Assembly (NCBI RefSeq): GCF_004138395.1
Contig: NZ_PRLM01000003.1
Span: forward strand, 1 to 64,000
Source: Candidatus Nanosyncoccus alces
GTDB lineage: Bacteria; Patescibacteriota; Saccharimonadia; Saccharimonadales; Saccharimonadaceae
Direction: 5' to 3'
Length of the DNA stretch: 64,000 nucleotides
The position numbers and the translations under genes are program-made. This document shows, in pieces, positions 16,645-20,926 of this stretch; the first letter of the stretch is position 1, and every line of letters begins with the position of its first letter. The notes below the pieces were generated by a model. The model was not told the DNA's origin. It saw only the letters and a list, made by a program, of their open reading frames with translations, and searched no databases.

Positions 16645-16721
16645 TGGTAGTACCGGGTGGGCTTGAACCACCGACCTTGGGCTTATGAGTCCCACGCTCT
16701 AACCAGCTGAGCTACGGTACC
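16645..16721 (-). tRNA. tRNA-Met (CAT)
   Basis: A 77-nt cloverleaf with CCA encoded. The acceptor GGTACCG pairs with CGGTACT and the anticodon loop is CTCATAA. CAT could also be the lysidine-modified Ile tRNA, but a tRNA-Ile with TAT anticodon exists at 39.4 kb and an initiator at 43.1 kb, so elongator Met is favoured. The pair next to the anticodon loop (A31, G39) is mismatched. TATAAT lies 9 nt upstream. Confidence 0.9.
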
Positions 16722-16879: not shown

Positions 16880-16970
16880 ACAGATTATGATGGGTCGTTC
16901 TCCATTGAACTTTTATTTTTTATCTACGGATATTAGATCATTTTGTCGATATAAGGTATAATTATCCTTG

Positions 16971-18053
16971 ATGAATAAGGGATTGCGGATAATTGATGTT
17001 GGTGAGGTGATAGTTGAATTAAAGAAGTCGGCTTCTTGTTCTCCATTTAAAAAAATTGTTATCAAATGCCCATCACGATTAGATGCTGCCTGTACTGACC
17101 CGGGGAAGCTATATAGTGTTAGCCCTAAGGACAATATCTACCCGACGGGACAAATTAATTTCTGTGCTAATATTTGCAAGACAATTTCTGTAGAACCAAG
17201 GGACGACGATGAGATTTTTATTACGGGGAATTATAGTCGTAAGTCCTTGGTTCGACATGCTGCAATATTGATGCGAAAAGCTTTAGGTGTTTCTACGGGG
17301 TTTTCTATTAATGTAGAAACAGACTTAGATTTGAGACATTGCGGATTAGGCTCAAGTGCATCTGCGATTCAGGGTGTTGGGGTGGCAATAAACGAATTAT
17401 ATGGTAAGCCGATAGAACGGATGGAATTGATTAGGTATCTTGCTGGCAATCATGCAGAGGAAATTGATGGGGATGATAGTCATTTAGTATACGTGCAATC
17501 GGTTGGAGGTTCTGGAGTTTGCGGGCATTTTAGTGGTGGATTAATTATAATAACAGGCAGAGCAACGCCAATAGTCAAAGTTAATTTGCCGGAGGAGCTT
17601 AAAATTGTTTTTGGAGTTCCGAATGAATATTTACATCCAGATGCTAATACATTGATAGCTGACGAAATAGACGCTTCCGAGAATTTCGAAAAAGCCAGTA
17701 TCGATTTTTCTAGAGAGATTGCTTATAGGCTTTTGAATGAGGCTATCCCGGAATTGCTAGATGGCAATTATAAACCAATGAAAGACTTTATTTTCGATTA
17801 TCGTTGGGATATGGGTAGTATAAAAAACTGTGCATATGCGTATCCGAAAATTGTTGAGCTTGCGGAAAAAATGCGACCACTTCGTGATGATAAAGATATA
17901 GAGTTTATATTTTTATCGACAGCTGGTCCAGGTTTTTGTATCGTAACCAAAAATACGGAAAAAGCCAGAAGTGTTTTTGAAAGTTTGGATATGAAAGTGT
18001 ATGTCGCCGATATTCATAATGATAAATATAAAATAATTAAGTTAATTAAATGA
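16971..18053 (+). CDS. GHMP-family small-molecule kinase
   Basis: A 360-residue kinase of the GHMP superfamily (galacto-, homoserine-, mevalonate-, phosphomevalonate kinases). 'LDLRHCGLGSSASAIQGVG' (about 120-138) is the glycine/serine-rich ATP phosphate loop. 'FIFLSTAGPGFCIVTKN' (about 308-324) corresponds to motif 3. The N-terminal motif 'CPSRLDAACTDPGK' differs from the common 'PGRxxLxGEH', so the substrate is probably not a standard one. ATG at 16971 is preferred over the TTG before it, because TATAAT (16957-16962) lies 8 nt upstream. It heads a tight cluster with a HAM1-like protein and a TrpB-like enzyme. The substrate is unknown. Confidence 0.82.
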   Translation: MNKGLRIIDVGEVIVELKKSASCSPFKKIVIKCPSRLDAACTDPGKLYSVSPKDNIYPTGQINFCANICKTISVEPRDDDEIFITGNYSRKSLVRHAAILMRKALGVSTGFSINVETDLDLRHCGLGSSASAIQGVGVAINELYGKPIERMELIRYLAGNHAEEIDGDDSHLVYVQSVGGSGVCGHFSGGLIIITGRATPIVKVNLPEELKIVFGVPNEYLHPDANTLIADEIDASENFEKASIDFSREIAYRLLNEAIPELLDGNYKPMKDFIFDYRWDMGSIKNCAYAYPKIVELAEKMRPLRDDKDIEFIFLSTAGPGFCIVTKNTEKARSVFESLDMKVYVADIHNDKYKIIKLIK

Positions 18054-18066
18054 AAGGAAATAAGAC

Positions 18067-18633
18067 ATGATTTATTTAACGTCAAATCCAGACAAAATGC
18101 GGGAAGCAAAAGAATTTTTTGAAAAGAAATATGGGATTGAAGTAGAGATATTGAATCCTGATTTTGAGCCAGTAGAGATTCAGGCAACGACTTGTTCGGA
18201 GGTTGTCGCATATACCGTCAAAGATGCAGCAGAACGTTTAGGGAAGGCTGTCGTAAAGTCTGATGCTGGATTTTATGCAGACGCTCTGGGGGGACTTCCT
18301 GGACCATACAGCAAATATTTCGACAAGCAGATTGGCGTAGAAAAATTTTTGCACATGTTAAAGGATGAAAGTAATCGTAAAGCTAGAATCGAGCACTGTT
18401 GGGCGTATTGTGAGCCAGGGGAAGAACCGAAAGTATTTATTGGCGGGAGTGACGGAACTATAGCTACGGAAGAATCTGGCCAGAGTAGTCGGTGGGTCGA
18501 TAAATTCTTTATACCAGACGGAGAAACCAGAACAATTAGTGCTATCCGTGATGAGAATTATGAGGAATCTAATAAATATTGGGGCGATGCTAAACAGCAA
18601 TTAGTTAATTATTTACTGAGTAAGGAGAAATAA
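18067..18633 (+). CDS. HAM1/RdgB-like nucleotide pyrophosphatase
   Basis: A 188-residue protein of the HAM1/ITPase fold. 'MIYLTSNPDKMREAKEFF' matches the N-terminal nucleotide loop of RdgB proteins, and 'KSDAGFYADALGGLPGPYSK' (about 65-84) matches the catalytic 'D-S/A-G-L-x-V-D-A-L-G-G-x-P-G-x-Y-S' block. Known members hydrolyse non-canonical purine NTPs. It has no partner DNA-repair gene here; instead it is 13 nt after a GHMP kinase and 3 nt before a trpB-like gene. That raises the possibility of a pathway role rather than house-cleaning. Confidence 0.8.
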   Translation: MIYLTSNPDKMREAKEFFEKKYGIEVEILNPDFEPVEIQATTCSEVVAYTVKDAAERLGKAVVKSDAGFYADALGGLPGPYSKYFDKQIGVEKFLHMLKDESNRKARIEHCWAYCEPGEEPKVFIGGSDGTIATEESGQSSRWVDKFFIPDGETRTISAIRDENYEESNKYWGDAKQQLVNYLLSKEK

Positions 18634-18636
18634 TAA

Positions 18637-19851
18637 ATGAAATATTCCATTAATGATTTTCCTGACAAGAATGGGTTTTACGGAAAATATGGTGGCAGTT
18701 TTCTTTCACCAGAAATGAACGAAGAGTTTCAACGGATAAATGATTTTTATCAGAGGATTAGGAATGATGCTGAATTTATTGATGAATTAAAATATATTAG
18801 AAAACATTATCAGGGTAGACCGACACCTATTACTTTTGCGAAAAATTTGACCGATAAGTTGGGCGGAGCGGCTATTTATCTAAAGCGTGAAGACTTAAAT
18901 CATACTGGAGCCCATAAATTAAACCATGCTATGGCGTACGGATTGGTGGCGAAAAAGATGGGCAAAACGAAAATTATCGCCGATACTGGCGCCGGACAAC
19001 ATGGGGTCGCGATGGCTGCTGCAGCTGCGTATTTCGGGATGGAATGCGATATTTATATGGGGAAAATAGATGCAGAAAAAGAGGCTCCGAATGTGGATAG
19101 GATGAAAATAATGGGGACGAATGTTATTGTCGTAGAGGATGGAGCGGGTAAATTGATAGATGCTGCCGCTGCATCTTTTGCTGCGTATGAGAAAGATTAT
19201 GAGCGTTGTTTCTATCCAATAGGTTCAGCGTTGGGCCCAGCTCCGATTCCCCAAATGGTTAGAGATTTTCAGTCTATTGTTGGCAAAGAGGCTCGTGAAC
19301 AATTTGCTGAAATGACTGACGGGAAGATGCCAAATAAAGTAATTGCTGTAGTCGGAGGTGGTTCAAATGCTATGGGATTATTTAGCGGCTTTATTGATAA
19401 TGATGATATCGAGTTGCTTGCTGCTGAAGCTTTAGGAAAGATGAGAGAGGGCGAAGAAGAGCGTGTGGGTGAACACGCCGCTACGGCAACATTTGGTGAG
19501 TTTAGAACAATGAGCGGTTTTAAGAGCTTGGCTTTAGCGGAAGAAGATGGAACTCCTAAACCGGCTTATTCGGTTGCTTCTGGTCTTGATTATCCAGGAT
19601 TAGGACCAGAATTAGCATATCTAAAAGAAATAGGCAGAATTAAGTTTAATGCAATAAATGATGAGGAAGCGATTGACGCATTTTATGATCTATCAAAGGC
19701 TGAGGGAATAATACCGGCTCTTGAATCATCTCATGCATTGGCGTTGGCTATGAAAATGGCACCGAGCCATCCTGGAGAAACGTTCTTAGTAAATCTTTCT
19801 GGACGCGGAGATAAGGATATAGAATTTGTGCTAAATAATTTTGATAAATGA
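18637..19851 (+). CDS. tryptophan synthase beta-chain-like PLP enzyme, without TrpA
   Basis: A 404-residue fold-type II PLP enzyme with full TrpB architecture. 'KREDLNHTGAHKLNHAMA' (about 84-101) holds the PLP lysine, 'GGGSNAMGLF' (about 241-250) the phosphate loop, and 'LSGRGDKDI' near the C-terminus. In canonical TrpB the catalytic acid lies in 'AETGAGQHG'; here the stretch is 'IADTGAGQHG', so the usual Glu is Asp. No trpA or other tryptophan gene is visible. The gene starts 3 nt after the HAM1-like stop. The family catalyses beta-replacement on serine. The acid change and the company of a kinase suggest an altered substrate, which remains to be shown. Confidence 0.88.
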   Translation: MKYSINDFPDKNGFYGKYGGSFLSPEMNEEFQRINDFYQRIRNDAEFIDELKYIRKHYQGRPTPITFAKNLTDKLGGAAIYLKREDLNHTGAHKLNHAMAYGLVAKKMGKTKIIADTGAGQHGVAMAAAAAYFGMECDIYMGKIDAEKEAPNVDRMKIMGTNVIVVEDGAGKLIDAAAASFAAYEKDYERCFYPIGSALGPAPIPQMVRDFQSIVGKEAREQFAEMTDGKMPNKVIAVVGGGSNAMGLFSGFIDNDDIELLAAEALGKMREGEEERVGEHAATATFGEFRTMSGFKSLALAEEDGTPKPAYSVASGLDYPGLGPELAYLKEIGRIKFNAINDEEAIDAFYDLSKAEGIIPALESSHALALAMKMAPSHPGETFLVNLSGRGDKDIEFVLNNFDK

Positions 19852-19862
19852 TAGGAATATGG

Positions 19863-19868
19863 TATAAT
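19863..19868 (+). promoter_or_regulatory. extended -10 box before the P-loop kinase
   Basis: TGG-TATAAT with TATAAT at 19863-19868, followed by a leader of about 60 nt and a GGGGAGGTGATG Shine-Dalgarno site before the ATG at 19936. Confidence 0.45.
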
Positions 19869-19935
19869 ATAAGAGTGGAGTAGGGGCATACTAGGAGCTT
19901 AACAATAAAATGATAACATTAGGGGAGGTGATGTT

Positions 19936-20523
19936 ATGTTTAGTCTTGGACAAAAAGTGCCAGAGGGAGTTGTATTTTTTTCTGGCCATCACGGAGCTGG
20001 TAAGACATATACGGCAACGGCTATGTTGGATTATTTTGATGCTAAAATCATTGATTGTGGTCCGATAATACGCAATACGTTTGCGGAAAGTGGCTTTAAC
20101 TCTTTTGGAGGCTGGGTGAAGGATATGGAGCAAAAGTTAGGACAGCGATGGGATGATGAGCTGCTACTCACGGCAATAAAAAATCGCATTGCTTGCGAAA
20201 GATTCTTGTTTATTGTTGGTAATAGAGATATAGAGACGATTTTATTTCTTTCAGAGAAATTACCACATAGAAGACCACCCGTTATAATTTACCTAGAAAA
20301 ACCTACACTTGTTATTAAAAGTGGCTACGAGCTTAGAACCAAGTCGGTTTTAACGGATGGGGAGTTTGAGGCAATTCTGCATTCTGGTCCGGATGCGAAA
20401 CTTGGACTAGTTAAGGAATATGTCATGAAAAACCCTGACCATTGCAAACTTATTTATGAGGATGACTATAGTAGTTTTTCTATTGACGAGGCGGTTTCAT
20501 TTGTCAGGACAAAATATCAATAA
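19936..20523 (+). CDS. P-loop nucleotide/nucleoside kinase-like protein
   Basis: A 195-residue P-loop NTPase. 'VVFFSGHHGAGKTYTATAML' (about 11-30) holds Walker A. The size and the 'IIDCGPIIRNTF' segment resemble adenylate-kinase or dephospho-CoA-kinase-like small-molecule kinases, and 'VIIYLEKP' looks like a strand preceding a substrate loop. No typical LID signature was recognised. It lies 84 nt after the TrpB-like gene with its own -10 box and strong SD, and is followed by a terminator at 20538, so it may be co-regulated with the cassette. Specific substrate unknown. Confidence 0.65.
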   Translation: MFSLGQKVPEGVVFFSGHHGAGKTYTATAMLDYFDAKIIDCGPIIRNTFAESGFNSFGGWVKDMEQKLGQRWDDELLLTAIKNRIACERFLFIVGNRDIETILFLSEKLPHRRPPVIIYLEKPTLVIKSGYELRTKSVLTDGEFEAILHSGPDAKLGLVKEYVMKNPDHCKLIYEDDYSSFSIDEAVSFVRTKYQ

Positions 20524-20537
20524 ACTATTCCGCATTT

Positions 20538-20562
20538 GGCACGGGTTATTCCGTGCCTTTTT
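20538..20562 (+). terminator. terminator of the GHMP/TrpB cassette
   Basis: GGCACGG (20538-20544) pairs with CCGTGCC (20551-20557), followed by TTTTT. Confidence 0.85.
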
Positions 20563-20759: not shown

Positions 20760-20836
20760 TGGTACACCGGATAGGATTCGAACCTACGACCCTCTGTTCC
20801 GAAGACAGATGCTCTAATCCACTGAGCTACCGGTGC
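20760..20836 (-). tRNA. tRNA-Arg (TCG)
   Basis: A 77-nt cloverleaf with CCA encoded. Acceptor GCACCGG/CCGGTGT; anticodon stem TCTGT/ACAGA with loop CTTCGGA, anticodon TCG, reading CGA and probably CGN. Most bacteria use an ACG anticodon modified to inosine instead. Confidence 0.93.
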
Positions 20837-20851
20837 AAATTTGGTATATTC

Positions 20852-20926
20852 TGGTACACCCGACCGGAATCGAACCGATATCATTGGTTCCGGAAACCAA
20901 CGTTCTATCCGTTGAACTACGGGTGC
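20852..20926 (-). tRNA. tRNA-Arg (CCG)
   Basis: A 75-nt cloverleaf with CCA encoded. Acceptor GCACCCG/CGGGTGT; anticodon stem TTGGT/ACCAA with loop TTCCGGA, anticodon CCG, reading CGG. It lies 16 nt upstream of the TCG gene and may be co-transcribed with it. Confidence 0.93.

Follow-up and report, generated by a model that had tools for sequence, protein, structure and literature searches.

A small, horizontally mobile cassette of predicted specialised-metabolism genes in Candidatus Nanosyncoccus alces

The window analysed here is a stretch of 64,000 nucleotides (nt) of Candidatus Nanosyncoccus alces (contig NZ_PRLM01000003.1, positions 1 to 64,000), whose genome has a size of 0.73 Mb and is 98% complete. 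Within the window a cassette composed of four intact open reading frames (ORFs), all on the + strand (16971-20523) and separated by gaps of 13, 3 and 84 nt, was distinguished. The cassette encodes: (i) a GHMP-superfamily protein (Pfam) of 360 amino acids (aa), placed nearest to beta-RFAP synthase and ForT by a structure model searched with Foldseek, hhalign and a motif table (gene 1; 16971..18053); (ii) a divergent HAM1/RdgB-like hydrolase of 188 aa (gene 2; 18067..18633); (iii) a TrpB1-type tryptophan synthase beta-like protein of 404 aa (gene 3; 18637..19851); and (iv) a P-loop kinase of 195 aa with a predicted nucleoside monophosphate (NMP) kinase fold and the Walker A motif GHHGAGKT (gene 4; 19936..20523). 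It ends with a strong intrinsic terminator (20538..20557, + strand; 8 pairs, 6 of them GC, and a T-tail), so that the tight four-gene arrangement closed by a single terminator, described earlier from the sequence (the original prediction), was confirmed.

The cassette lies in a site bordered by tRNA genes (detected with ARAGORN): a tRNA-Met gene on the left (16645..16721, - strand), which is conserved in the sister genome G395, and two tRNA-Arg genes on the right (20760..20926, - strand). In G395 the orthologous site is recognised by ruvB, genes of a membrane protein and a pilin, and tRNA-Met on one side, followed by tRNA-Arg, comEC and yebC on the other. The segment between tRNA-Met and comEC (L122:2521-4631) contains the two tRNA-Arg genes together with two unrelated ORFs, and the cassette is absent, which indicates that it is a mobile unit placed in a tRNA-flanked variable site. 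By virtue of the two unrelated ORFs, the site of G395 also has the look of a hotspot of gene turnover.

The close relatives carrying the cassette are labelled Saccharibacteria. Genome G422 (L011) contains all four genes in the same order (76, 91, 87 and 69% identity with the window, respectively), and G830 (L012) genes 1-3 up to a contig end located inside trpB, while in G395 a member of the gene 1 family was found at a contig end. The regions flanking the cassette in the window, G422 and G830 are not alike, and in the relatives it occupies other chromosomal positions. Recent exchange between the sister genomes is unsupported, since the divergence of the cassette (69-91% identity) resembles that of RuvB (88%). 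An origin from a phage, plasmid or virus was rejected: the GHMP protein had no relatives in the plasmids, phage records or viral contigs searched, and TrpB and HAM1 had none in the viral contigs. Judged from these sequence comparisons, the four genes make up a small operon that moves horizontally and has a predicted role in specialised metabolism, and we consider it likely that they form a linked biosynthetic unit. The original prediction had named unlinked genes in related genomes, or trpA and other trp genes elsewhere in the genome, as findings that would speak against it; both were looked for and neither was seen.

Gene 1 carries a GHMP N-terminal domain (43 bits, above the Pfam cut-off). 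With the NCBIfam equivalog models the best match was homoserine kinase (39 bits, cut-off 194), another model gave 28 bits (cut-off 168), and the beta-RFAP synthase model gave 16.4 bits, its cut-off of 113.5 not being reached. Assignment of a pathway from family models alone was rejected, because the equivalog scores of the cassette proteins, TrpB excepted, are under the cut-offs. The AlphaFold2 (AF2) model of the protein (predicted local distance difference test score, pLDDT, 89.6) was compared with the PDB using Foldseek, and the three top matches were ForT (E 9e-16, TM-score 0.66/0.72); IspE, homoserine kinase and mevalonate kinase ranked after it, with E-values up to about a hundredfold higher. 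ForT is a C-glycoside synthase (formycin) dependent on phosphoribosyl pyrophosphate (PRPP), and beta-RFAP synthase belongs to the methanopterin pathway.

For a closer comparison, six annotated or recognisable beta-RFAP synthases (RFAPS) and seven homoserine kinases (ThrB), derived from plasmid and E. coli records, were used. In profile-profile alignment (hhalign) the gene 1 family scored 110.9 over 294 columns with RFAPS and 97.1 over 255 columns with ThrB, the score between RFAPS and ThrB being 92.5. Two sequence motifs are shared with RFAPS: P-x-R-L-x5-D, present in all 12 family members examined, in five of the six RFAPS (strict form) and in none of the seven ThrB, and H-x-G-x-G-S, present in 12/12, 6/6 and 0/7, respectively. 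Arg19 and His99 of ForT, which bind PRPP, fall within these two motifs (PMC8183095), and Asp19 of RFAPS, which is needed for activity, falls within the first of them (PMC6787355). In the gene 1 family R36, D43, H123 and the GLGSS loop are invariant, and E163 is kept. The fold match predicted from the model, the profile-profile scores and the motifs thus place the protein nearer to beta-RFAP synthase and ForT, and make the label 'GHMP kinase' doubtful.

Several features weigh against a ForT-like function of gene 1. The 5'-phosphate motif GR..S was found in none of the 12 family members, and Thr106 and Arg135 of ForT, essential for PRPP binding, have no counterparts. In a plain sequence profile search gene 1 scored 40 and 28 bits with homoserine and mevalonate kinases, respectively, against 17.5 bits with ForT. 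Moreover, E163 aligns with a Glu residue of an archaeal homoserine kinase, which we take to be a Mg ligand. The last two observations make a kinase role quite possible. In that case gene 1 would be a true GHMP kinase which, together with gene 4, adds two phosphates to an alcohol or an amino-acid derivative, with the TrpB-like enzyme using or making the amino-acid part and HAM1 trimming nucleotides; the cassette would still be biosynthetic, with ordinary kinase chemistry. Such an assignment agrees with the best PDB sequence-profile and NCBIfam matches (the latter far under cut-off), the invariant Mg-type Glu163 and the loop GLGSS instead of GLGSG, and also with the genome lacking a detectable PRPP synthetase (see below). 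It accords poorly with the RFAPS-type first motif and loop His, seen in all 12 members and in no ThrB, with ForT being the best fold match and RFAPS the better profile-profile match, and with the mevalonate-kinase-type catalytic Asp, which is not evident (SGVC at 181-184). We regard it as possible, if somewhat unlikely.

Gene 1 is therefore like beta-RFAP synthase and ForT in its GHMP fold, both motifs and a whole-length profile match, and differs from them in the missing GR..S motif, the missing equivalents of Thr106 and Arg135 and the presence of the Mg-type Glu163; with homoserine kinase it shares the GLGSS loop and this Glu, and the RFAPS-type motifs set it apart. The pyrophosphate half of the site is thus kept and the ribose-phosphate half lost. 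This suggests either that the protein is a transferase for which the diphosphate donor is a different one, or that it is a kinase whose set of motifs is unusual, and the data do not firmly separate the two. Should gene 1 encode a transferase that uses a new donor, this would represent a new activity in one of the few groups of enzymes that make C-glycosidic bonds. The original prediction had considered gene 1 an ordinary kinase able to make activated amino-acid phosphates, a proposal which the fold, profile-profile and motif comparisons disfavour and which survives as the kinase alternative above.

Gene 2 matches the Ham1p_like family (PF01725) with 101 bits, over the cut-off, and remains under the RdgB equivalog cut-offs. 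Alignment with E. coli RdgB showed that it resembles the XTP/dITP pyrophosphatases in the N-x-x-K start, the general-base Asp and the PG-x-(Y/F) segment, and differs from them in the loss of the C-terminal base-recognition motif SHR and of the GYDP segment. About 15 genomes of the genus carry, without the cassette and scattered over unrelated positions, solo HAM1-like genes that are 54-60% identical to gene 2 (L086-L097), and the products of these genes also lack SHR and GYDP. HAM1 was therefore rejected as a cassette-specific protein. Gene 4 is weakly characterised by sequence, with no family model reaching its cut-off. Its AF2 model (pLDDT 86.9) gave UMP/CMP kinase and adenylate kinase as the top Foldseek matches, and the likeness to these NMP kinases consists of the fold and the Walker A motif, sequence identity being only 12-21%.

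The search for the gene 1 family covered 393 genomes of the order, eight of which contained it, and 380 of the phylum, which added five strong cases (three weak matches near E = 1e-4, probably ordinary GHMP proteins, were left out of the count). With G830 included, this gives fourteen distinct loci in Patescibacteria, ten of which contain HAM1 and two MazG inside the cluster. Beyond the cassette type there are ten further clusters, usually with a P-loop kinase and a protein of NTP-pyrophosphatase type: (i) in G054, G100, G211 and G221 the gene 1 homologue is accompanied by a P-loop kinase, HAM1 and a PrnB/IDO-like heme enzyme; (ii) in G708 and G582 by a P-loop protein (Walker A recognised by eye), HAM1, a methyltransferase and a PrnB-like gene; (iii) in G496 by a methyltransferase and a HAM1 protein 53% identical to that of the window; (iv) in G409 and G706 by a P-loop kinase and a MazG-type gene in place of HAM1; and (v) in G531 only NUDIX-like and P-loop genes are visible before the contig ends. 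Variant clusters of MazG, P-loop kinase and GHMP protein (L026:681-2685 and L043:763-2181) look as if MazG had replaced HAM1.

In six of the clusters a PrnB/IDO-like heme enzyme is present and trpB is absent, and at none of the loci were trpB and a PrnB-like gene seen together. Within the order (393 genomes) the PrnB family was found in four genomes, each of which belongs to the eight with the gene 1 family, and in the same clusters; the probability of such co-occurrence by chance is 7e-8, a value that serves as a guide only, as the genomes share descent and are not independent. The PrnB-like proteins exceed the cut-off of the Pfam PrnB model, and the Pro-His expected to provide the heme ligand is kept in all six. 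They resemble the heme-dependent aromatic oxygenases PrnB and IDO in this Pro-His and in the GGAQ/GSG segments, and differ from those systems in being embedded with an RFAPS-like core, with no pyrrolnitrin genes seen. The absence of trpB from the clusters with a PrnB/IDO-like enzyme points to tryptophan or indole chemistry as their common theme. The literature searches made returned no description of these clusters or of the cassette.

A short protein adjoins PrnB in the Saccharibacteria clusters (L022:6863-7390, L023:11382-11912 and L025:11624-12166); by eye it is nucleoside deoxyribosyltransferase-like with a ribbon-helix-helix-like tail, and the one representative tested had no Pfam match. 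Beside the PrnB-type cluster of G582 there are a fold-type II pyridoxal phosphate (PLP)-like protein, recognised by eye, and a TrmB-like regulator (L041:11496-12305).

Gene 3, the only PALP-family gene in the genome, scored 475.5 bits with TIGR00263 (cut-off 392.45) and 161 bits with TIGR01415, the model of the TrpB2/O-phosphoserine type, far under its cut-off of 518.85. It is thus of TrpB1 type, and the use of O-phosphoserine, which had been suggested for it, was rejected by this subtype assignment. The residues for PLP and serine are kept (K87, GAGQHG, GGGSN, S377 and E350; E. coli numbering here and below). Neither trpA (PF00290) nor trpC was found in the genome of the window by searches that were positive in 14/14 controls.

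A residue table was prepared for 28 aligned TrpBs (27 besides that of the window), in which Asp109, Ile167 and Val230 (E109D, K167I and C230V) were found only in the cassette proteins. Glu109 occurs in 26 of the 28 and Asp in the window and L011; the proteins of L012 and L098 share the Asp. K167I affects the position of a TrpA contact, and E109D and C230V the indole site. Glu at position 109 of TrpB activates indole and controls the choice of nucleophile, and changes to Gly, Ala or Ser admit phenols (PMC12727527). The replacement of Glu by Asp is conservative, and altered use of the nucleophile is hence a lead rather than a finding. Gene 3 accordingly agrees with TrpB1 enzymes in its TIGR00263 score and all PLP and serine residues, and differs in the lack of a genomic TrpA, in the three substitutions and in its fixed gene partners. 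Literature searches on Saccharibacteria TrpB and on E109D returned nothing relevant. Being altered by nature at the residue that activates indole, this TrpB offers a ready test of the natural use of the position.

A simpler role for gene 3 would be indole salvage, in which the lone TrpB makes tryptophan for protein synthesis from host indole and serine, the other three genes being unrelated. The intact PLP and serine residues fit this role, as do eight related lone TrpBs of Patescibacteria without adjacent trpA, all with Glu109 kept (G757, G720, G634, G787, G666, G705, G782 and G446; L044-L050 and L052). Three of these adjoin, as judged by eye, a TrpRS-like gene, and indole salvage is probably their function there. 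For the cassette, the fixed order with three other genes at other loci in relatives, the occurrence of E109D and K167I only in cassette TrpBs, and the existence of clusters with the same core, without trpB and with a PrnB-like enzyme, make this explanation rather improbable.

Gene 3 is 59-62% identical to the lone TrpBs of G757 and G006. The TrpB of G006 (L029:4577-5782; 62% identity), which retains Glu109 and comes from a genome lacking trpA, is encoded directly beside comEC, a gene that also flanks the site of the cassette in the window.

The reading we prefer is that the cassette joins an aromatic amino acid to a donor that is either phosphorylated or a diphosphate. The substrates, the directions in which the steps run and the product are all inferred, and the following steps are proposed. 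The TrpB-like enzyme would condense the aminoacrylate formed from serine with indole, or with a nucleophile related to it, giving tryptophan or an analogue. Gene 1, whose conserved loop would hold a pyrophosphate leaving group, would link a diphosphate donor to the aromatic ring, which is electron-rich. PRPP is probably not this donor, because the gene 1 family lacks the 5'-phosphate motif and PRPP synthetase was not found in G000, G422, G054 and G221 (14/14 controls positive); gene 4 may produce the donor by phosphorylating a phosphorylated alcohol a second time. For the HAM1-like protein we propose a hydrolase that cleaves diphosphates or nucleoside triphosphates, with changed base specificity, acting on the pathway or clearing toxic nucleotides. 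Related clusters with a PrnB/IDO-like enzyme in place of TrpB would make variants.

We put this coupling chemistry forward tentatively, at somewhat less than even chances. Against it count the facts that no diphosphate donor, acceptor or transporter was identified, that the idea of a non-PRPP donor rests on the exclusion of PRPP, that the window-type cassette, unlike its relatives, has no oxygenase or methyltransferase, and that the loss of SHR, shared with the solo HAM1 proteins, is not cassette-specific. The broader proposal of a hitherto undescribed branch of the RFAP synthase/ForT group spread across Patescibacteria, in which PRPP has been swapped for another diphosphate donor and which modifies tryptophan- or indole-type rings in modular clusters, is speculative and, in our estimate, unlikely as it stands. 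As to the pathway for an unusual compound conceived in the original prediction, the linked unit, its joint acquisition and an aromatic or phosphorylated product are retained, whereas the chemistry has been partly revised.

The genomes of Saccharibacteria and the remaining Patescibacteria are very small, and in most descriptions these bacteria cannot synthesise amino acids or nucleotides. A mobile biosynthetic cassette of conserved order in such genomes suggests a valued product, whose target may be the host or competitors. If the broader proposal above is correct, ultra-small epibionts with hardly any other biosynthesis would produce a novel class of small molecules, with TrpB used in one lineage and PrnB/IDO-like enzymes in others.

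A C-nucleotide pathway of the type known from formycin-like nucleoside antibiotics was also considered, in which gene 1, as a genuine PRPP-dependent C-ribosyl synthase, is followed by the kinase forming the di- and triphosphate and by HAM1 cutting the triphosphate. The ForT fold match and motifs, the NMP-kinase fold, the HAM1 partner and an NDK-domain gene in one of the clusters (L025) are in line with it. However, PRPP synthetase is absent from the four genomes named above, the only phosphoribosyltransferase-domain protein in G000 is ComF-like, the 5'-phosphate motif is missing in 12/12 members of the family, and PRPP synthesis was reported to be lacking in another Saccharibacterium (PMC6031116). 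Owing to the absent synthetase and the missing motif, this pathway is improbable and is kept only at low probability.

A nucleotide-based anti-phage defence, with the cassette making or controlling a chain-terminating or signalling nucleotide, is highly improbable: it would suit the mobile, patchy occurrence in a tRNA-flanked variable site, the HAM1 and kinase partners and a distant PDB match to the HAM-like subunit KomB (solved structure), which belongs to a defence system, but none of the four proteins matched a PADLOC defence model, the cassette contains no effector, nuclease or SIR2 gene, and no relatives were present in the viral contigs or phage records.

The codon usage of the cassette had been described as less biased than that of its neighbours, consistent with transfer. 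This is only partly borne out: the GC content at third codon positions is low (0.30-0.34; the median of the window is 0.44 and its 5-95% range 0.32-0.48), but in overall codon distance the cassette is no outlier. A promoter-like site (19841..19868, + strand; 11/12 matches, extended TG -10), a consensus match only of a kind no commoner overall than in shuffled sequences, precedes gene 4 in the gap of 84 nt, which may therefore be transcribed separately. Upstream of gene 1 (window positions 16915-16971, inspected by eye) a TATAAT-like -10 element ends about 10 bases before the start codon, and its proximity suggests that gene 1 may be leaderless or very short-leadered.

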